This document shows positions 1-14,413 of a DNA stretch of 64,000 nt, in pieces; position 1 is the stretch's first letter; each line of letters opens with the position of its first letter. The stretch is taken from contig JAJEKV010000057.1 of the NCBI GenBank assembly GCA_021234155.1, forward strand, positions 5,115,821 to 5,179,820. The letters are read 5' to 3'. The notes beneath the pieces are model-generated. The model searched no databases. It worked only from the letters and a program-made list of their open reading frames with translations, and had not been told where the DNA came from. The position numbers and the translations under genes were made by a program. This DNA is from Isoetes taiwanensis. Its lineage: Eukaryota > Streptophyta > Lycopodiopsida > Isoetales > Isoetaceae.

Positions 1-1419
1 AGAATCCGCCCCTCAGTTGTCTTTCTGAATCCACGAATATAATCTTCTTCCATCCCTGTGCCCAATACATTCTTCCCTCCAGGCTTGCAATCTGGCCATG
101 GCTATGGCTTCCATTTTTCAATCTCTTGCCTCTGTGCATACAGAGCAAAACAATTAGGACCAAATTGCGGTGCTTAAAAATCCTTTCCATGTCTTGTGAT
201 CGGATCAATTCTCGGCGCATCCAGAAAATCGAGTAATGGCGATTGCTTGGGTTGATGCTTCACATCCCGACAGTACTTGGGTTGCTCCATGTTTTTGAAT
301 CCGAGATATGGCCTCACATTGGATCCAGTCCGGCGCCGGAAGCACCGCCTTACACACATCGCGTGTCCTCAGATGGTCGCGAAGAGAAATATGTGTCAAC
401 AATGAAAGAGTCTAGATTGCGGCGGAGAACCAGGAAAATAAAAAAAGAAAAAAGAAAAATGTGAAACACAATTACATATGAGTTGATAAGATTGTAAGGC
501 AAAGGCAGTTTGTTTGCTTCCACAAAAAGTAATGAACAATAAAAATGGATGGTAAACTCACCTAAAAAGCTCTTGCTGAATGTTGGCCAAATCTGCCTTG
601 GCTGAGTGTTGCCCGAATGAAGCAGGCAGATCTGTTTGCCAAATTTGCTGGCCGAATGAAGCTAGAATCTCTGAACATTAAATGCCACGCTCCCCAAGGT
701 CTTCATACTACTATGGGATGAAACCAGAAATAAAGTAGATGGGTTACGCTTTCGGGCTTCCCCAAAACAAAATGTTTGCAAGATCCTCCGAAGCTCTCGC
801 GTTGGATCCATGTATTGAATTTTTCATTCTCTCCTTCTACCCTAAAATAACCCTAAAAAGATGGCACGATGCTTGCTAGAAGAGATTTTGGTACTAAAAA
901 TAATATATAGATCCGGTATTCCTATGCTCACGTCTTCTAAGCGTATTTGCGAGAAATACGTCCACTTCCTATACCCCTTGCCGGACCAATGCCATAAAGC
1001 CCTAGAGAAAACAACCGGTTCCACGGTTTGGCATTCCACGGCAAACCCCCATTGCATGCACTTGGCTACTATGGCTGGAGGAATCATGGCAGCGAGAAAT
1101 CATGAACAAAAACATGGCAAATTCTCCCTCAAGGGCTTTCTGTTTTGTAACTCGCTGGCCGATTGTTGCTATACATAGAAGTGGGTCGAGCAAACAATTT
1201 TTATCACCTCTTTCGCGCCTCTCAAGCACCTCCACACGGTAAAAAACCAATTCCGTCCCTGCCATCAAGCTTGGCGATGTCGTAAAGGACAATAGAAGCT
1301 CCATCGGCCTCTCGTAAGCAAAAAACAGAGTGAGAATACGCAATCTTTTTTTTTCCTTTAGCTTTTTTTTTTTTTCAACCGTGAGATGGGCCAAACAAAT
1401 AGCGGCCATTGGATCTAGG
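1..1419. other. No supported gene
   Basis: Both strands carry only short open frames with no recognisable domain. On the minus strand a run near 560-700 ends in a splice-donor-like AG|GTGAGT, but no matching exon could be built. If the LTR element to the right is intact, gag-pol should lie here, yet no protease, reverse transcriptase or integrase motif is visible. The stretch is either strongly decayed element or a different sequence. Confidence 0.4.
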
Positions 1420-1937
1420 GCGTGGTCCATTACACAACATTATAATATAAGATTTCATCAAGCCACGCTTCTGCTTCCATTCCGGATCTGGTGTCTCCTG
1501 AGAACTGCTCGAGCTTTCTTGCTTTCCAGACATTGCTAAGCGCTGAGTCGACCTTCTTCTGATAATCAGATTGTGCCCTGCCCCTATTACGGTTTGGGTC
1601 GTCTCGTTGGTCCTGTCTCTCCACCTGCTCTTCCGATCCGGAATCAGAGTCTGAACTAGAGTCGGAGGAACCCGAGCTAGGGGAACTTCTTCTCCGGCTT
1701 CTCTTCCTTTGTTACCTTTGTTCAGCCCGGCCGGTGTTTTACGGCAATGGCACATTCGGTCTTGCCCCTCTGTTCTTTGCTGCTCTTGCCCGGCAATGCC
1801 CTTATCTCATGAATGTCGGATCGAATCTGTGATAGATCTTCCTCTGCTATCACTGCATCAAACTCTTGGCGTAGGTTTCTTGGCTGGAAACGCCATGGTG
1901 GAGTACGCTCTTGGTCATGATGTGCTTGTTGTTTAAG
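1420..1937 (-). pseudogene. gag: Decayed gag of a Ty3-like retrotransposon
   Basis: A minus-strand frame begins near 1937 with a stretch containing TPPWRFQPRNLRQEFDAV. It shifts frame near 1740 into an Arg/Ser/Asp-rich linker and ends in KARKLEQFSGDTRSGMEAEA followed by WLDEI. The pattern of a polar linker, then a phrase like 'F-x-G-D-...-A-E-x-W-L', is typical of the start of the capsid part of plant Ty3/gypsy gag. A TAA follows at once near 1428, and the rest of the capsid and any zinc knuckle are not visible. The assignment rests on this motif alone; another gag type is possible. Confidence 0.5.
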
Positions 1938-2146
1938 ATTTCTAGGTACTCTAGCTGCATATACACATTAGATTATACTCTGATGATTAGTTCATTGTTT
2001 TGTCATTGCATTGGTTGTTTGATGATATAATTGTGGGGACAAAATATATCAAGAGAACATAATTGAAATTACCATTTGCATTTATGAATATAATAACACT
2101 TATACGTTCAAGGAGTTAGTCATAAGGATTGAAAATATTTTTAATT

Positions 2147-3742
2147 TTATTCTTGAAATTTCTTCAAATATTTGGGGTTGTCCTCCAAAAATTTCTTGAC
2201 TTGGATTGTGCCGACTGTTTGGCCTAGGTTCCTGAGGATATTTGTGGCAGTGCCTCCTTGAAGTGCGGTCTCCAAGTCCTCGATCATCCTATCCGAAGTA
2301 TATGCTGCAGTCACTGCCAACCTGCCCTACCGTCTGTAGGGGACTGCGAAGTCGAAGATACTTAATGCTATCATTCTCTTGATAAGGACGACATGGTCGA
2401 TGTTTGGGGCCATCCGAGCATGACTTCCGAATCCTTCTTCACCCCGTGGGCTGAATTGGCGGTGTATAACCGCTATTCTTCCGTCTAGGAGTAATGGATG
2501 GTAGAACCTAAGGGTTTTATCATGCCCTGCTTCCTCACCAGATGTTAAGGCTGCCCTATATCTTCCTGCGTACTCGTCAATCTGCACATCCTCCATTTCT
2601 CTGAAGTCCCGGTACACTAATTTGCTCAGGTTGATGCTGCTTCCATGCTGCCCTGGTGCCGATGCCAATGTGCTAGGTAAGAGTGCTGATGTTGACTTTC
2701 CCTTGATGCCCATGCGCTCTTGGATTGCCAGGAACTCTTCTTCTGACGGCAATTCCCTCTCGGTCATCCTCTGTCTGATGCTGATGTAAGACGTGATGTC
2801 TGATGACGTCTCGCCGGTGTATGTCCTGGCTTTCCTTATGCTGATGGGGAAGTCTTGAGTTTCTCGATCGATGAAGTCGTCGAGATGTGGTTGTTGTCGT
2901 AGGAGATGCAGAATTTCATCTACTCTGTAGCCCCTGTCTCAGCATTCTGGGAGATTTTTAATATCATGGAGGCTTAAGTATGCCTCTCCTCCTATGAACA
3001 CTGGGGTCAAGCTTGTTATTCCTTGCCCAAGTGGTGGGGCTCTTCTTGTTGCTCTGAGTCCTTATTCAAAGCTTTGAAGCTGCTGCTCTACCTGCTGCCT
3101 CTCCTGTGCTAGGTCGATGTCTTCTGAATCCGACCCGCGTCCTTCTTTTTCTTCTTCCTCCTCCTCGTACTCGAGGCACATTCTCTCCTCTTCTGCTGGT
3201 GCCATGGCCATGGGTTCAACTTCTAAGGGCTGCACTGAGGGTTCTCCTATCTGGGTTTGGCCTCTCTGAGATAGGTAAATAGCTACTGCTGTTGTATAGG
3301 AAAAGTACCTCCTCCTATTGACAGAGATAGACATGTAATTGGGTAGGCGAACTGCTTTGTTCTCTAGGTACTTGTCTATGTTTGGGATGTCATGCAGAGC
3401 TGACTTAAGGGCCATGCTGGGGGCAAAATATCCTATAAAAGGTGGGAGTTCTACCAAGGATGGTCCTATCTTAGCATAGAACTCAGACATAATGTCCTGG
3501 TAAAAAGGGGTGGCATTGATGGTGGTTTCCACATCAAGCTCCTTCTGGAAGACAGCGAAGACGGAGTTGATGTCAGCTTCGGCCACATAAGATGTGGCGC
3601 TGTACCATCGCCTGAATGCAATCGTTGCGCAGCTGGGGATATCAAACAGATAGGCAAGCGCCTTAGGGGTCTGGAAAATCGGCTTGGAGTGAGGAGCAAA
3701 GGTCTTGGATGCAAATGGGGGTTGTAATCTACTTATAGGCAA
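2147..3742 (-). pseudogene. Unknown ~530-codon ORF broken only by three in-frame stops
   Basis: One frame stays open from a stop near 3787 to 2147, except for three single stop codons: TAA (3062-3064), TGA (2939-2941) and TAG (2327-2329). There is no frameshift. The N-terminal third is hydrophobic and aromatic (FYAKIGPSLVELPPFIGYF); then follow an acidic low-complexity segment rich in Glu and a polar C-terminal half ending in KKFLEDNPKYLKKFQE. No ATG lies at the N-terminus (the first possible starts are TTG), so translation may begin on a spliced or upstream segment. I do not recognise the family. Its place between the H3 frame and gag suggests a retrotransposon accessory protein. Confidence 0.55.
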
Positions 3743-3784
3743 AAACTCTAATTTTGGGAAATTTTTGGATAAGGGAAAATCTAG

Positions 3785-4532
3785 GATTCTAAGGTATTGC
3801 TAAGCAAAAGACAAGCTAATCATGCTAAAGAATACATTCTAAGGATCCTATTGCAACAAATTTCATCTAATTTGGAGAAAGTATGGACAAGTTAGGGCAA
3901 TTTTAGTGTGACCACTCACACAGTGCGCCAGGGTCGAATCGGTTTGCAAACCGATTTGGTCTAGGCGCACTCTGTGAGGGGTGGGGCCTTGTTTGGGTCA
4001 AAGATGATGCCAAACATGGAAACTAAGGATAAAATTCTGCATATCTCGTCGAGATAGGTCGGATTGAGCCCTTACTTGCCTCATTTGGACAAGTTTTGGC
4101 CTAGTTTTGGGGTCGACCACTCACACAGTGCGCCAGGGTCGAATCGGTTTGCAAACCGAATTGGTTTGGGCGCACTCTGTGAGGGGTGGGGCTCCATTTG
4201 AGTTAGGGTTGGCCAATTTCTACAAACTAGGGGTCAAAATCCTACTAATTAAGATGAGCTGAGTCGAATGGTGTACTTACTTTCTGCATTTGGACAAGTT
4301 TTGGCATCAAACCATGCTCGACCACTCACACAATGCGCCGGGGTCGAATCGGTTTGCAAACCGAATTGGTCTGGGCGCACTCTGTGAGGGGTGGGGCCAA
4401 AAACACTTGGTTTTAGTCCAAATTTGTTAATTCCAACTAGAGAACTTAGTACACATCCTACTTACACCTGATTTAATACATTGATTTATCCAAATTACAA
4501 ATTTGTATTAACAAAAATTGTTTACAACAGTC
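3785..4532. repeat. Three spaced copies of a 73-bp palindromic hairpin
   Basis: Copies lie at 3912-3984, 4117-4189 and 4322-4394, about 205 bp apart. Each has outer arms CCACTCACACAGTGCGCC and GGCGCACTCTGTGAGGGGTGG-like around an inner palindrome AATCGGTTTGCAAACCGATT. The spacers are much less similar, though they share scraps such as TTTGGACAAGTTTTGG. This looks like an old ~205-bp tandem repeat in which only the hairpin has been kept. It fills the gap between the H3 frame and the next ORF. No coding frame was seen here. Confidence 0.85.
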
Positions 4533-5753
4533 TTAATCAAATTCTTTCTTAATATATTTAGCTAACCTCATGTCTTTGGGCATACATGTCACCCTATTGG
4601 CATGAATTGCACACGCTACAGAGTCTTCAAAATGTTGGACTATATGTTGCTCGGTTGCCTCCTGGAGTGAGAGCAGCATATCGTCCGTGACTCTCTTCGA
4701 CTTGTCGAATTCCTGCAAAATTTCCCGTGTCAGCCTTGCGAAAGGAGCCCTGGGAATGAGGAGGCCATAGCTCCTCTGGAAATGCCGTCTCGGGAGGCTC
4801 TGGCAAAGTATGAGTCTGTCCTCCTCTTCGGGGGTTTCTTCGGTGGAGCAGGTCTCTCAGGTGGCGGCTTCAGAGTGTTCTTCTTAGTCGGCCAGCCTCC
4901 TTCGACAAACGTGACCTTGTGCTCGTCGTAATACTTAGAGTATTCTTCGTACATTTTCATGTACGAGTTATGCTCTTTCAGCTTCTTTTTATACTCAAGG
5001 CTCGTGCTTGAGTATATACGACTCCCTCTATGGCCTCGGCTTCTTGGGGCTGTTGCTGGGGTGCTTTGGCGACGGCCACTTAGGGTACGGGGGCACCCTT
5101 GCTGCTTGCTCCTCCTCCTCCTCTTCGGCTGGAGTCTGCCCTACAGTCGAGGGTCCTGAGCCTTCGGCTGGTGGGGGAACCCTTACTCCTTCATCTGACT
5201 CAGTGTCCGATGAAGACTGCCGCTCCTCTGGGTCTGGCTCCTGAATGACGACACCTTTTGCCGGGGTTGTCTTCAATTTCCGTTTGGTGTCCTTCAGTAG
5301 CGCAGGGGCTTTTACCTTGTCCGCTCTCTTCTTCATACGCTCCTCCCGTCGCCTCATCTTCTCCTCCCTCTTCTGTTTCTTCTCTTCCCTCCTTTTTCGG
5401 CGCTCCTCCTTCTCCCGTCGGCGGCTCCTTGCTCTTCTTGATGCCTGTTTCTTCGCCTTCCCGCTTTCTCTTCTTCTCCTTTTTTGGCTGTCGAGCTCCC
5501 TCTGGAGCTCCCTACTCAATATCTCTGCAGCTTCTTCTTCTGTAAGTTCTTCACCCCCCTCCTCAAGGTCTTGGGGCCGATCCTCCTCCTGGTGCTCAGG
5601 GGCCTCCTCTTGGGCATCTGGGTTGGGCTGAGCCTCCTGTTCCTGCTCGGCTCGCTCCTGAGCCTGTCGGGCCTTCTGTTGAGCGGCCCGCTCTTGGGCG
5701 CTCATATGTCCAGGGGGCACTAGAATTCGGGCGGTCTGTTTGGTGCGGGCCAT
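4533..5753 (-). pseudogene. Histone H3 tail + charged insert + H3 fold, retrotransposon-borne
   Basis: The frame starts at ATG 5753 with MARTKQTAR (5753-5727), identical to the first nine codons' product of histone H3. The tail then departs: K9, K14 and K27 are absent. A ~270-residue insert follows: Gln/Glu-rich, then strongly Lys/Arg-rich, then acidic and Pro-rich. The H3 core follows without gaps. KKPPKRR matches the alphaN entry KKPHRYR; RHFQRSYGLLIPRAPFARL matches RKYQKSTELLIRKLPFQRL; LQEATE, FED, then ACAIHANRVTCMPKDMRLAK matches [20 protein letters not shown]. From RHFQ to the stop I count 41 identities in 83. Loop 1 has canonical H3 length, so this is not CENH3-like. Two one-base frameshifts (about 5030-5060 and 4788-4797) break this copy. 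The insert is about twice the size of H3 itself (135 residues). Function is unknown; capture of a host H3 by the element is inferred. Confidence 0.85.
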
Positions 5754-6457
5754 GTTTTGATTTGAAGCGATTTGAGCTTTGGCGCCTAAAAATTGTTTTC
5801 TGAGATGAGCTGTTCTCCGAAGGCGCTGGGGACAAATGAGGAACCCTAATTTTCTATTTATAGGTAGGGGTAATTTAGGGTTTGAACCTGCAATTCCATA
5901 TTGGACCAATCTAGAAGGTATTAGTGAAGACATGAGGGGTACATTAGGTTTATTTAGCGAAAAAGCATCCACCACTCACACAGTGCGCCAGGGTCAAATC
6001 AGATACCAAACGGATTTGGTCTGGGCGCACTCTATGAGGGGTCACCTCTTTTTGGGTCTAATTTTCAATTTACAAGGGGTTTCTTAGTGTTATAACATGC
6101 AAAACTAGCTAGAATCAAGGAGATAAGTTGAACTTCACCATTAGTTTAGCTAAATTATACATCTAACTAGGTCCACATGGGTCCACCACTCACACAGTGT
6201 GCCAGGGTCGAATCAGTTTGCAAACCGATTTGGTCTGGGCGCACTCTGTGAGGGGTCACTTCTTTTTGGCCATTTTAGGTTGGGTTTCTGCTAAAACTTA
6301 TTATTAACTTAGCATTAACCTATTTACTATACTAGAATTGGAAAAACATTTTCAATTTTTCGAGGTTCCTGCTTGGGTGGCTATTTCCCAAGACTTGAGT
6401 CTACTATTAGTCCTATGGGAAAATGGTCAGTGCTCGATCTTGGTCTGCCAAGATCAT
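5754..6457. repeat. Retroelement leader with two more palindromic hairpins
   Basis: This stretch lies between the primer binding site and the H3 frame. It holds hairpin copies at 5972-6044 and 6186-6258, 214 bp apart, of the same family as those at 3912-4394. The 5972 copy has lost part of the inner palindrome; the 6186 copy keeps it almost intact. Right after the primer site is a small perfect hairpin, GATCTTGG-TCTG-CCAAGATC (6436-6455). The minus frame upstream of ATG 5753 is open to 5975 but has no recognisable content. Confidence 0.7.
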
Positions 6458-6469
6458 GCTCTGATACCA
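6458..6469 (-). promoter_or_regulatory. Primer binding site for initiator tRNA-Met
   Basis: On the minus strand the sequence TGGTATCAGAGC stands one base after the LTR end. This is the usual plant retrotransposon site complementary to the 3' end of initiator tRNA-Met. It fixes both the strand of the element and the 3' boundary of its 5' LTR. Confidence 0.93.
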
Positions 6470-6470
6470 C

Positions 6471-8066
6471 TGTGACATCCCCTGCTTCTTATACGATGCA
6501 CCATCGTATTCGAAGACGGAGCATTTCCCCTGACAGCCATCTGGCAGTGGCCATCCACCTGACTCCACTCCCAGTGGAATGAGCCAGCAAGGGAAGAGTG
6601 GATGTGTTATTCACCCGTCTTCCATCGGGTCGACCTATCTGCGGAAGCGTGAATACAATGAGCACATAACACAATATACAATACAATCACCCCGAAGGGG
6701 AAAACATCATATCATCATCAATATAACAACATCAACAGGAATATTGACAGTGCAAGGTAATCCTACCCAGGCTCAGACTCAAGGGGGTATGACTGACGGC
6801 TTGGGCCTCCAGAAGTCATTGCAGACAGAATTCATGGCACATGGATTTGGCTGGCATAAGAACATGGCTAAGGGTAGTCCACTTCATCCGCCCCTCCTGT
6901 GCACACTTTGCAGATTGGGTTGAAAAGCGTTGGGACCGGACCGTAGCCTGCCAGGTGCATAGCCGAAAGGGCTACTACTGGGTTGCATCTCCCCAGCCCT
7001 GATGAGGCCGGAAGAGAGTTGCCTCTCCTCCAGGGACTTCCATGCGCAACACAGGTGACTAGAGAACCACTGCCCTTATTCGACTTGAACCTATTGGAGA
7101 GTGACGCATCACTCCACGGGTGTCGAGCTCATGCCTTGCCCACACGCAGTGGCAAGCCATTAAGCCTAGTCCACAGGGATCCCTGATAGGCTTTACACAC
7201 CAGAGGGATCGTTCTGTGTTGGGACAAGTACCCCATTGTCTTGCCGGTCTAGCCCCTCAACCCACAACCTGGTGGGCTCCTGTGCACAGGCCGCAAGTAA
7301 CTGGAAACTAGAAGGTTGCCTAGAATCATCTGCTATACAGGCTTTAGGCCTCTACCCCCCTTCCCAATACATGGAGGTCATAGAATGAAATACCAACATC
7401 ATCATAGAACTGAAACGAAGAACATCATCTAATCTATCTACCTAAACATCCAGAGTTAGGTTCCTTAGTTAGGACTTATGATCTCGGGATCTGTAAGGCC
7501 TCTATGGCTGAATGAATATGCTAAACTACCTTACTGCCTAGCCCAAAGACGACTTTGCACAACAGAATGACTGATTACCTGCTCCTTGGCCCGCTTCAGA
7601 TCCTCGGAACGCATCCATGTCCCTGATCTTGCTGAAGATGGCTGCTACTCCACGAGCTGTTGTGCAAAGGCGGCTTTACGGAGCCTCGCAATGCGAATTT
7701 GGTTATGGCCAGAATGGCTCAAGAGAACCCTAAATGCGAAAAGGGAAAGGAGCTCTATGAAAACCCTTAAATGCAAAGAGAGGAAATGTTTTAGGGTTTA
7801 AGGGGAAACCCTTATATAGAAACCCTTAGGGTTAGGTTAGACATTGGCAAATGGGGTTTAGCCATTTGGCAATGGGGTCCATGGGGTTATTAATTGTGTA
7901 TGTTTATTTAACATGCACAATGTTCAAAGTTGCCCCCTAGGTGCAACCCTTGCCCCCTAAGTGCAAACCTACTACAACCACCAAGTACATGTCATCCGTG
8001 ACATGTACGGGTGACGTGGCAGTATAATATACGTATTTGGGGCGTATATTATGCTGGAACGTCACA
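6471..8066 (-). mobile_element. 5' LTR (1,596 bp)
   Basis: On the minus strand the LTR begins TGTGACGTTCC and ends GGATGTCACA, so its ends form the perfect inverted repeat TGTGAC...GTCACA with TG/CA termini. The primer binding site follows one base later. The U3 start holds two perfect 10-bp inverted repeats (7985-7994 with 7999-8008, and 8024-8033 with 8043-8052). A TATA box lies at 7811-7818. The five bases outside (GCAAA on the minus strand, 8067-8071) should recur beyond the 3' LTR. No second LTR copy is in the window. Small open frames inside are not genes. Confidence 0.9.
7811..7818 (-). promoter_or_regulatory. Probable TATA box of the LTR promoter
   Basis: The minus strand reads TATATAAG here, about 250 bp into the LTR, in a context of AAACCCTTA-like motifs on both strands (7740-7840) that resemble plant telo-boxes. 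The position suits a U3 promoter with U3 about 0.25 kb long and a long R/U5. The transcription start is not determined. Confidence 0.55.
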
Positions 8067-9557
8067 TTTGCACTCTCTTTTTTCCAGCTGTTTTGGCTTT
8101 AGCTTTGACCATAAATTTTTGTGTTGCCTTGGCTGCAATCTCCAAGGCTTCTTCAACATCATCTGGCTCCATTGAATCGTCGCAAGTCTCTAAAGTAAAG
8201 AAAGTGCTTCATTCTAATGTTTTGAAAGCAAGACAAAAAATGAAACACGTACCTGCCAAAGAACAAGACTTTTCCTCAACTTGAACTTCAACAGCAGCTT
8301 CAGGACTGTTTTCAGTGTCGTCACCAACATCTTCAGTAATTTTATCTGTAAACACGTCAACGTAAGTTTCAAAAAAAAAAAAAAAAAGAAACCCTGAAAA
8401 GGAGAAAGAATTACTTTCTGGGCTTTCAGCTTGTTGCTGCAATAGTAGTAGCTCAGCTTCAACAGCTGGGATCTCTTTTTGGAAAACAACCTCTGCTGCA
8501 AAATATTGATGTAATCAGACTGTAATCACCCTACCTTCCACAATTTCTGAAGTTTCTCCATGTACCCCTTGGTCTCTAAATCATGCACTGATTGCTTATG
8601 AGTTGTTGCAATTCTCAAAGGTGATGTAGATGTGGATGGACTTCCAACGTCGATAGCAGTAGCATGTTTTGTGCCAGGTTCAGCAACTGGGATGTCTGAG
8701 AATGGTAAATGCAACCCCTTCCCAACAACATCTTTCTTTTCACCTACAACATTAGATTTTGCTATATTCAAAACTTAAGCATAGTGCAAGAAACATGAAT
8801 TGTTTAGTTTACCTGCAGTTTTAGTTCTTGCTTTCTTGATACTACCCATATCTGCATTGACACAATTGGAATCATAAGCAAATAAGAAATATAAACACTT
8901 GATTGAGAATCAAGGGAGATGTAGAGTAGATAGAAGCAAAATCTGCAGAAAAAACAAGCAGATGCAAATCAAAACAGAACAAATGTTAAATAGATGCAAG
9001 TAGGTTTTTACTACAGGCAAACTTTCTGCTGATAATGTAACGACAAAATAGAAGTACATTAGTGTGCATAGCTATCAGAATGTAAAGGAAAACCAAATAC
9101 TAAATTCAAATGCATTTCAGAACATATGTAAAATGTAAAGAACAAAATATTTTATCAATACACCCTATCAAATACATCATTCAACATTAAATGTAAAGGA
9201 AAATCAAATACTAAATTCATATGCATTTCAGATCACATGTAAATGTAAAGTACAGTCATATGCAATACACCCTATCAATACACCCTGTAAAGGAATTCCA
9301 GAAAAGCACTTCATGGCACATGTAAATGTAAAGAACAGAAGCAAATACATTTCCTCTTTATAGTAAAGACAAAACCACGCCAAATCAAATGCTAACACAG
9401 TTATGTACATGATGGAAATTAACTACATCTAAGTACACTCAAACTAATTATGTAATGAAAATAGAAATAGATGTACCTTGAGAAGGGATTCCTAAGCAGT
9501 GCCGCAGGTCCTCGGACCATGAACAATCATGTACACATGTATTCGTCATTTGAAACC
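8067..9557 (-). pseudogene. Exon-like 3' part of a decayed gene, cut by the LTR element
   Basis: Six minus-strand segments have AG acceptors and GT donors: 9477-9557, 8813-8851 (MGSIKKARTKTA), 8535-8743 (EKKDVVGKGLHLPFSDIPV then a Ser/Thr-rich part), 8415-8495, 8253-8345 (acidic, NKITEDVGDDTENSPEA) and 8067-8189 (ETCDDSMEPDDVEEALE then a Lys-rich part). Most junctions keep one frame; the join between 8535 and 8495 does not, so a base is missing or the border is wrong. The last segment runs straight into the LTR end at 8066, so the retrotransposon interrupted this gene. The protein is charged and low in complexity; no family is recognised. The intron at 8852-9476 holds a ~110-bp imperfect direct repeat (9079-9187 and 9188-9300). 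Confidence 0.45.
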
Positions 9558-11255: not shown

Positions 11256-11497
11256 ATGGGACCTGAGATCATATGCATATGCTCAAAAAATGGATTTGAG
11301 GCAAAAGGGCAAAACTCTCTGCAGACTAGTCTCTTAGATGTAGATAGTTTGCTACAGCAACTGCATAAATTGTACCATATGACAGGTTTACATGGGGGAA
11401 TGGACAGACAGGGCGATATCCTCACATTTTCAGAAACAGATGTATTTGAAGGGCTTAAATCACTATCTGTGGCAAGGCAGCTGATGCACTTGGGTTA

Positions 11498-12830
11498 ATG
11501 GCAGAAATGATAAAATGGGCTGGCCCAACTGTAGCCAGTACCATCACTAAAATGATGAATAGAGCATTAGTTGAAGGCTTCCCTCACACATGGCAAGTCA
11601 ATAGAGTGGTACCAATCCATAAAGCAGGCGATGTCAATGACCCAAGCAATTATAGAATGATCATGATAAGCAGTCTGTTCTCAAAATTATTTGCCAAGCT
11701 TATAGAGATGAAGCTAAGTGATTGGGCAGAGATGCATAATGTCAGAGCATCTAGGCAGGCAGGCTTTAGGCCTAACAGGTCCATAATAGACCACTTAATC
11801 ACTATGAGAGCAGTGAAAGATGTTGTGAAGAAAACTAAAAAGCCGCTCTTTGCTTGCTTTGTAGATCTCACTAAAGCTTTCGATATGCTAAGAAGAACGA
11901 ACATATGGGTGGATCACATTGGAGTGCCACAAGAGCTCAGGAACGCAATAGCAGTGCTATATGAGAATGTGTTGGTGAGTCTATCTTTCCCGCTAAATAA
12001 ATCCTGTAAAGCAGAGATAATTAGTAATATTGGAGTAAAGCAAGGATGCCCTTTATCCCCTACACTGTTTGGAATATATATAGATCAATTAGAGACGTGG
12101 ATGCAGAGACATGGTGGAGGGGGGACTACAATTGCAGGATACTTGCTTATTTTACTCTTATATGCAGATGATATTGTTATTCTTGCTCAGAATCACCATG
12201 ATATGCAGAGGCACTTGGATGCATTAGCCAACTTTTGTGACGCTACCGAAATGCAGGTGAATCTGAATAAGACTAAAATTCTCATTTTTGGGAAAAGAGT
12301 TCATAACTTCCACTTCTAATACAAGGGAGAAGAGGTGGAAATAACAGACACATATAAATATTTGGGACTTATAGTGGATCACACTTATGGGTAGAACAAA
12401 GCAGTTGGGCAACGTACTGATGCTGGGATCAAAGCGCTAAATGCAATGCAGCAGAAATGCAGAAAAGCGGGAATTGTAGATTGGAAACTGAAGAAAATGT
12501 TATATCAAACATTGGTTAGGATAGTTGTGCTATACAGATGTGAAGTATGGGGGCCTGGACTCTCCCAAGAAATGTGGAAAAGAGTTGAAAAAATCTAGAA
12601 AAAGTTCATTTTGACGGAATTAGGGGTAAAAATGCAAACCCCGTATCATATGATGCTAGCTGAAGCAGGAATGGAGATGTTAGAGGCTGAAGCATTATTT
12701 CTGACGCTCAAATATGTGCAAAGGGTCCATGACATGAATGCTGATAGGCTACCGAGACTTGCAATGATACAGAGTAGTCTCAAGGGATGGTATAATGATG
12801 TGAATAAATGGTTGGATAAAATGGGGAATG
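11498..12830 (+). pseudogene. LINE-A1 reverse transcriptase
   Basis: Reverse transcriptase motifs appear in order: GFPHTWQVNRVVPIHKAGD, QAGFRPNRSIIDHLITMRA, FACFVDLTKAFDM, NIGVKQGCPLSPTLFGIYID, the catalytic LLYADDIVIL (YADD at 12161-12172), LNKTKI, then the thumb/connection region. In-frame stops interrupt it after 12319, near 12392 and near 12596. It is homologous through its length to the enzyme at 18681-20189. It would copy the element RNA at a nicked target. The 5' part (endonuclease) is missing. Confidence 0.88.
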
Positions 12831-12835
12831 GGCAT

Positions 12836-14413
12836 TTTGCAGATGATACCTTCATCCTCTTATCCATGGACCTCCAGTCGATTAATCATGCCAAGGAGAT
12901 CTTAAATGCTTTTGATAACCTTTCTGGCTGCAAGATTAATCCCACAAAATCCAAGATTACCTCTCACAACCCGGATCTAGGAGCTCAGGTTGCCACTCTC
13001 CTTTAATGCAGTTTCAATCCCCCAAATGTTCATTCTAAGCTTCTAGGCATCCCTTTCGCCATCCGATCAAATGCTGCTGAATTATGGAATAACATCATCG
13101 AGAAATTCTACCACAAAGTCGACACTCTCAACTCAAAGTTCCTTTCTAAAGCTGGTCGGGCAATCCTTGCAAACTCGGTCATTGCCTCAACTCATGTGTA
13201 TCAATCCTCCTTCATTCTTGCTCCAAAATATGTATACAGGAAGCTACAAGGAATCCTTGGGAGATTTATCTCTTGTGGTAGCAACAGAAAATGCTGGACT
13301 CCAGTCTCCATGGAAGAGTGTTGCAAATCCAGGTCTATGGGAGGACTAGGCATCATCAACATTGAGAAGCATGCCATAGCCCTGGCAGCAAAGTATTTCT
13401 TCAGGGCCATTATCAACAAGATCCAGCATCCGGTTACAGTCCTCATCAAGCATTATATCCTCCAATGCAAGCCATATGGTTGGAACATCAAAATGTTGCT
13501 CCCTGACGCAGCCTTTTTTTATTTCCAGATCCCCAACAATTGTCCTCCCTTGATAAGGAAATGGATTATGGCTTGGAAGCAGGTAAAGGGAATGTATTCA
13601 TGGGAGAAAGGCATTTCCCTTTCTCAAAACATATTCTGGAATCCCTACCTCCTTGGTGAAAACAGCACCCATTGTCTCATCAGAAATTTCCCAGACCAAG
13701 CAAAACTTTGGCAAGAAAAAGGTTTAATTACAATTTCGGATTTATTCGATGCTAACGGTTCTATTCCTTTTGATTCCTCCATTATCAGGAATGAAGATGA
13801 CAACAGCAGATCCCTTTACAATGCCATCCTCAGCTATATTTCTCTAGCAGAATGGAATAACAGTGACATTACTTGGCAATACAAAGGGAAACTTCTCTTT
13901 AAAGTAAAGGAGGCATATAAGTATCTTATGAAAGATCAAGAGATGAGTATCCACCTCAAATGGGGAATATCCCAGGAATGTTGCAGATCCAATCTCATGC
14001 ACCTTTGGAAATCCCCAATCAATCCCAAAATCAAAGCATTCATTTGGCAATTATGGCATAAAAGCTTAGCCACAAATTGCAAGCGCTTCAGCTGTAACTT
14101 CTCGAATTCTAATATCTGCCCCAGGTGTCTCTCTCATGCAGAAAATGAAGACCATTTATTCAGATCCTGCTTTTGGTCCCAATGGACAATTGAGATCTCT
14201 TCAGAAGCCTTGCTACTAAATCTCTCTCTAGAGAGTCCTGAAGTCGACTTCTTTTTACCAAACTCTCCCAGACATTGGAGCTTCTATATCCTTCTCTGGA
14301 GAATTTGGAAAGGCAGAAACAAGCTGGTTTTCTGCAATGAAATAATATGGCCTCAAGCCATTCTCTCTCAAACCAACTATGATGTGTCTTGGATTTATAA
14401 AATTAACTCATAA
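12836..14413 (+). pseudogene. L1-type ORF2 C-terminal half with zf-RVT domain
   Basis: From FADDTFILL at the start, the frame runs 525 codons with a single internal stop (TAA, 13004-13006). Palm and thumb remnants (ILNAFDNLSGCKINPTKSKI; KLLGIPF) lead to a long connection and, near the end, the reverse transcriptase zinc-binding domain (zf-RVT): AFIWQLWHKSLATNCKR, then ICPRCLSHAENEDHLFRSC, a C-x2-C...H-x4-C pattern. The domain closes with FYILLWRIWKGRNKLVF. This layout is standard for plant L1 ORF2. Truncation leaves it without endonuclease and most of the palm. Confidence 0.88.

Follow-up and report, generated by a model that had tools for sequence, protein, structure and literature searches.

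Ty3/gypsy retrotransposons of Isoetes taiwanensis encode, upstream of gag, a protein ending in a histone H3 core

Introduction

Can an LTR retrotransposon carry a histone of its own, and has selection kept it there? The question is raised by a minus-strand reading frame (ORF1) in the window, by which we mean the whole stretch of 64,000 nucleotides of DNA from Isoetes taiwanensis, a quillwort and thus a lycophyte rather than a fern, that was analysed. The original prediction, made from the letters of this stretch, was that ORF1 is a histone H3 captured by an LTR element, with an exact H3 N-terminus, a long charged insert and a complete core. We compared ORF1 with its relatives throughout the genome and found that Ty3/gypsy elements of this plant encode, 5′ of gag, an ORF1 that ends in an H3 core.

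Results

Layout and state of the window copy

The window element runs from high to low coordinates, starting with the 5′ LTR and the primer binding site (PBS), followed by two hairpin units, ORF1, three hairpin units, a remnant of a second frame (ORF2) and the start of gag. Its features are:

6471..8066, minus strand: 5′ LTR, TGTGACG...GTCACA, 1596 bp, both ends read
6458..6469, minus strand: primer binding site, TGGTATCAGAGC
5970..6257, minus strand: two ~72-nt hairpin (palindromic) units between PBS and ORF1, spacing 214 nt
4533..5753, minus strand: ORF1 (H3 tail, charged insert, H3 core) with two frame breaks, ATG at 5753 and last stop at 4533
5727..5753, minus strand: exact H3 N-terminus, MARTKQTAR
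4545..4787, minus strand: H3 core (alpha-N to alpha-3)
3910..4398, minus strand: three ~72-nt hairpin units between ORF1 and ORF2, spacing 205 nt
2150..3628, minus strand: ORF2 remnant, 78% identical to the 504-aa ORF2 of copy A
1430..1967, minus strand: N-terminal part of gag, broken near 1440 (frames compared with the gag of copy A)

The TGTGACG start and GTCACA end recur in the 5′ LTRs of two further copies (B and C, described below), where they are followed by a sequence identical to the PBS, which we take to be of the tRNA-iMet type. An ungapped repeat search of window positions 1–9000 revealed no second LTR. As predicted, ORF1 opens with MARTKQTAR and closes with an ungapped H3 core, which matches Pfam Histone above the cut-off (E = 1.1e-20) and PDB H3 at E = 7e-20 over 82 residues, 41 of them identical by count from the alignment. 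The two frameshifts that had been proposed are seen as two breaks between three open segments (5975–5028, 5140–4730 and 4856–4533), and because of them this copy is dead. The predicted position between PBS and gag is correct as to order, except that a whole additional ORF, ORF2, intervenes before gag. Elsewhere in the window (11459–14413), frames for reverse transcriptase and zf-RVT resemble a non-LTR (LINE-like) element.

The window element belongs to a chromovirus family

A genome search with the core of the window's own family (family 1) gave 7,952 first-look candidates, from which the best 150 matches were scored, and six neighbourhoods of 30 kb each (copies A–F) were read. Paired LTRs flank copy A (96.4% alike), copy B (94.2% alike, with the PBS and a 5-bp target-site duplication, AAGTA) and copy C (~1,597 bp, 99.25% alike, the 3′ LTR differing at its end and no target-site duplication seen). 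Pfam identifies Retrotrans_gag and Ty3_capsid in the gag of copy A and, in order, RVT_1, RNaseH, Integrase_H2C2 and rve in the pol of copy C, whose integrase carries a C-terminal chromodomain (PF00385, 4.9e-10, residues 784–833 of an 858-aa frame). The family-1 element is a chromodomain-bearing Ty3/gypsy element, that is, a chromovirus. Copy A has, in each of its two 2.4-kb LTRs, an antisense fragment that matches the H3 core towards its C-terminus (L010:3547–3663 and L011:5914–6030).

Fourteen family-1 copies were read, the window copy (L001) among them. MARTKQTAR is exact in ten, reads MARTKQTVR in one and is changed or disrupted in three. The full H3 tail is absent from the family: the match stops at residue 8 or 9, where an insert rich in acidic and basic residues begins, about 300 residues long (~270 in the original prediction for the window copy). 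That prediction held that K4 is kept and K9, K14 and K27 are lost. For family 1 this is right as to K4, K14 and K27; the loss of K9 applies to the window copy (I9) and not to the family as a whole, since position 9 is K in 5 of the 14 copies (A, B, C, D and F) and I in 6. Within the core, the conserved R63 is replaced by P or S and R129 by Y or F (H in L005). An alignment of 14 core sequences shows no change at R69, R83, C110, R116, T118 and L126 and very little at R72 and H113 (H3 numbering).

At least three families carry the H3 core

The best 150 matches to a canonical H3 query comprise 15 full-length host genes (96–98%) followed by 135 sequences at 71–86%, ten of which (L042–L051) were read as copies of a second family. 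The family-2 frame opens with MA-x-TK in eight of the nine copies whose start was recovered and with MANIK in the ninth. It continues with an unrelated N-terminal region, without the canonical tail past MA-x-TK, and from about residue 37 on forms an H3 core that shares about 90% of its residues with host H3 (Pfam Histone down to 2.6e-41); the canonical tail is thus not essential in every family. One family-2 copy, followed 5 kb downstream of its H3 (L052), has ORF2, Ty3 gag, protease and a fragment of rve (integrase). With one copy per family compared, families 1 and 2 are 64% identical in gag and 50% in the H3 core. The DNA pattern for IMPKDLALAR has 579 genome matches (309 + 270; control 0).

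A third family of the same plan is represented by L054 (MARTKQTARK, a similar linker and an H3 core) and part of L021, both with stops. Its C-terminus as a query scored 89–100% over the best 150 matches, and four family-3 matches, L054 included, have MARTKQTA 1.2 kb upstream (51 pattern places compared). At least three element families therefore bear H3, and families 1 and 2 have been read into gag; an unaltered H3 N-terminus, set apart from the core by a long charged insert, is found in most family-1 copies and, where the start is seen, in family 3. A degraded frame at G000:C35:87270-88669 (L053) starts with MARTKQTARI and ends in H3-like fragments. It is perhaps a fourth family, and its tail variant recurs among the pattern places listed.

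Genome-wide, the MARTKQTA[R/S] DNA pattern has 1,888 matches (904 + 984; reversed control 0), a figure that includes host genes and dead copies and is not divided by family, versus 15 full-length host H3 genes. A general amplification of histone sequences is not supported, as H4, the histone used as control, is without such an expansion: a search with H4 yielded 69 first-look candidates, compared with about 7,200–9,000 for each of four H3 queries, and 43 matches, 16 of them full length at 99–100%. A single H4-like match (G000:C1029:13340930-13341205) is 58% identical and lies in a frame of 176 aa that is interrupted by one stop. Among 176 IMG/VR stretches matching a peptide pattern, no relative of ORF1 was found.

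Position of H3 relative to gag

The distance and orientation of H3 relative to gag are consistent among the matches listed, where H3 is upstream on gag's strand, mostly at 3.0–4.4 kb, and never downstream of gag or on the other strand. At least 17 of the best 150 family-1 gag matches have a family-1 H3 upstream within 12 kb (14 of these at 3.3–4.1 kb), and 10 others (at least 10 of the 150) have a family-3 H3 at 3.06–3.43 kb; for the best 150 family-2 gag matches, at least 29 have a family-2 H3 at 3.0–4.4 kb. No H3 is among the matches listed for 123 of the 150 family-1 and 121 of the 150 family-2 gag matches. Where the motif list is complete, the exact family-2 motif stands upstream of 4 of 11 gag matches on contigs below C907 and of 6 of 9 on C907, so that a good part of the family-2 gag copies is without the exact motif, through decay, truncation or a different 5′ end.

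ORF2 and the hairpin units

ORF2 spans ~430–504 aa between the H3 frame and gag (2150–3628 in the window, L009:7586-9097 and L042:2118-3407), and its family-1 and family-2 versions are homologous (BLASTP E = 7e-8, 25% over 244 positions). The ORF2 of copy A has no Pfam or PDB match, and that of family 2 has no Pfam match. The ~72-nt palindromic units flank family-1 ORF1 at like positions, with at least one unit in all 14 copies. In an alignment of 26 units from seven sources, standard pairs occupy 89.1% of the pair cells, and the covariation score, which kinship of the sequences and gene conversion can inflate, is 0.094; shuffles give 0.047, none of the 500 attaining the observed value, and the score does not exceed 0.059 when slid. 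In the apical stem, six pairs are altered on both sides in a compensatory manner, a number reached by 53 of 500 shuffles. BLAST with one unit gave no match in the family-2 loci examined.

The H3 core is old and under purifying selection

We estimated dN/dS (NG86, pooled over pairs) from 14 family-1 and 10 family-2 copies. Family-1 values, approximate like all those given here because synonymous sites are saturated, are 0.043 for the H3 core, 0.30 for the insert and 0.19 for the linker (91 pairs each) and 0.26 for residues 1–32 (78 pairs). The five long-frame family-1 copies give 0.067, 0.25, 0.11 and 0.15, respectively (10 pairs each), and family 2 gives 0.029 for the core and 0.43 for the middle (45 pairs each) and 0.14 for the N-terminal 170 residues (36 pairs). 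In three pairs for which gag was also measured, gag values of 0.096, 0.048 and 0.049 correspond to H3 values of 0.28, 0.036 and 0.060. The value of 0.28 comes from the close family-1 pair A–B, which has few changes, and constraint on the H3 core is similar to that on gag in two of the three pairs. The comparison across copies that the original prediction called for has thus revealed strong purifying selection on the core.

Synonymous divergence from host H3 is saturated in both families, with pS of 0.73–1.02 and a nonsynonymous difference of about 35% for family 1 (210 pairs), and pS of 0.81–1.05 and pN of about 0.10 for family 2 (150 pairs); host H3 genes differ from one another by pS of up to 0.87. 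This divergence rules out a recent host H3 pseudogene, a possibility raised together with the original prediction, and since other copies also carry the frame, the H3 part is not a pseudogene inserted by chance. Stop-free frames at least as long as ORF1, counted without regard to a start codon, occur in 19 of 150 family-1 and 48 of 135 family-2 sequences among the best matches. The element H3 core is old and has been kept by purifying selection.

These figures also bear on whether H3 could be a functionless passenger, captured from the host and amplified by hitchhiking. Such an account would fit the broken state of the window copy and many others, and is contradicted by the substitution pattern (core dN/dS of 0.03–0.04 at or near synonymous saturation), by the many long open frames and by the ORF1–ORF2–gag order common to two diverged families. 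We regard it as scarcely credible.

Origin of the element H3

In a tree, the element cores fall into two groups, families 1 and 3 (support 96/94) and family 2 (95/92); a tree without family 3 likewise keeps families 1 and 2 apart. Families 1 and 3 lie with two plant CENH3 sequences on one side of a branch supported at 94/86, below the tool's mark. Placing every element core in one clade is marginally rejected (p-AU 0.044), and the data do not reject a clade that unites all of them with canonical H3 and leaves out CENH3 and CENP-A (p-AU 0.071). The tree is built on 99 columns with long branches, with provisional CENH3, CENP-A, human and yeast reference sequences that do not include an Isoetes CENH3. 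There may have been a single capture with fast change in families 1 and 3, or two captures.

A second capture, from a CENH3 gene, could have given rise to the H3 of families 1 and 3 and would steer the element to centromeric chromatin. The CENH3 branch, the marginal rejection of one clade uniting families 1 and 3 with family 2, and a shared LLIP-x-A-x-F-like motif, as seen by eye, speak for this origin. It is nonetheless improbable: the branch support is below the mark and comes from few columns, long branches and provisional references, the canonical clade that shuts out CENH3 and CENP-A is compatible with the data, and the element matches are spread over many scaffolds. Furthermore, loop 1 is longer in CENH3 than in H3, whereas the element loop 1 has the length of that in H3, to which it aligns without a gap.

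Discussion

What might an element do with such a protein? In the reading that we favour, with a probability of about one half, the element makes an old, selected H3 variant that would be expressed, pair with host H4 and be loaded into nucleosomes, altering chromatin. Pairing with host H4 is itself probable. Residues 86, 87 and 89, presumably the patch read by chaperones, differ from host H3 in both families; this altered patch and a tail reduced to K4 (no K14 or K27 and, in some copies, no K9) would change how the chromatin is read. The benefit would be greatest on the element's own new DNA, as an escape from silencing or as integration into suitable chromatin. AlphaFold monomer models of ORF1 from family 2 and of the core are poor (mean pLDDT 40.8 and 51.7). 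Foldseek with the core model gave 268 matches at E ≤ 10, of which the 50 listed are nucleosome, octamer and other histone-containing entries with a TM by query of about 0.37, which adds little to the sequence evidence. Counting against an H3 variant are the loss of conserved core residues in family 1, the missing canonical tail of family 2, the many gag copies with no H3 among the matches listed and, on few changes, the H3 dN/dS of 0.28 in the close pair A–B.

The tail suggests a different use, in which ORF1 acts outside nucleosomes as a histone mimic or decoy, its free H3 tail and surface titrating readers, writers and chaperones and so blunting silencing. The exact MARTKQTAR in most family-1 copies next to a variable insert is in keeping with a decoy, as is the genome-wide abundance of the tail pattern, host genes and dead copies counted in. 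A decoy would not, however, need such strict upkeep of the whole core, and family 2 has no canonical tail while its core is still about 90% identical to that of the host; we consider a decoy unlikely. ORF1 might instead serve integration or packaging, condensing cDNA together with H4 or tethering the pre-integration complex in concert with the integrase chromodomain. One element encodes both ORF1 and a chromodomain integrase, the insert has many acidic and basic residues, and core dN/dS is near that of gag in two of three pairs, yet no domain ties ORF1 to gag or integrase, and we rate this role as unlikely, slightly more so than the decoy.

A more elaborate form of the H3-variant reading would have ORF1 replace host H3 on element DNA and the integrase chromodomain recognise it, so that new copies land in, and are shielded by, a chromatin of the element's own. 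We think this improbable. The element chromodomain lacks the first aromatic cage residue, as judged by eye against HP1. In a plant chromovirus survey, type II chromodomains are described as missing the first cage residue, and usually the last as well, and as having no known partner (PMC6317226). A link between the element H3 and this partnerless plant type, which the element chromodomain resembles, would be a guess from sequence.

Several mobile or viral elements with histone sequences provide comparisons. In the fungus Pyrenophora tritici-repentis, an H3-like gene (H3L) resides in a hAT DNA transposon with 26 very similar copies, a recent expansion (PMC3538342). There, too, a transposon carries and multiplies an H3-like gene; in contrast, the Isoetes element is an LTR retrotransposon with diverged old families and measured purifying selection, and in family 1 a long insert separates tail and core, unlike in H3L. 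The bracovirus H4 proteins CpBV-H4 and CvBV-H4 are reported to join host nucleosomes (PMC9145170; PMC5423620) and similarly exemplify a viral or mobile element that encodes one host-like core histone with an odd N-terminal part, although they are H4 proteins of wasp polydnaviruses with reported nucleosome joining, whereas the Isoetes H3 is known from sequence. A Culex Helentron likewise holds histone sequence within a transposable element, in this case broken fragments of the H4 and H15 superfamilies with stops and frameshifts in 8 copies (PMC4067079).

The Isoetes element shares with plant chromoviruses the gag-PR-RT-RH-INT-chromodomain arrangement and LTRs (PMC6317226) and differs from them in having two further ORFs before gag, one of which ends in an H3 core. 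In the text of that survey, 'histone' occurs once, concerning chromodomain targets (PMC6317226), and it has no occurrence in the main texts of the I. taiwanensis (PMC8566536) and I. sinensis genome papers. The original prediction knew of no described LTR retrotransposon with a histone, in agreement with our literature search, which covered mostly openly available journal papers and found no such report; the fungal hAT element shows that a transposon-borne H3 as such is known.

Here, then, selection has maintained the frame of a histone that a mobile element encodes, and the element H3 explains why H3-like matches are so numerous in this genome. The families offer a natural test of which H3 residues are required, one having kept about 90% of the core and another having its tail cut at residue 9. 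Retrotransposons are usually silenced by host chromatin, and in Isoetes a successful lineage has itself long encoded a core histone under selection, which makes it testable here whether an element can alter the chromatin it lives in. A selected element H3 suggests that elements alter or exploit plant chromatin.
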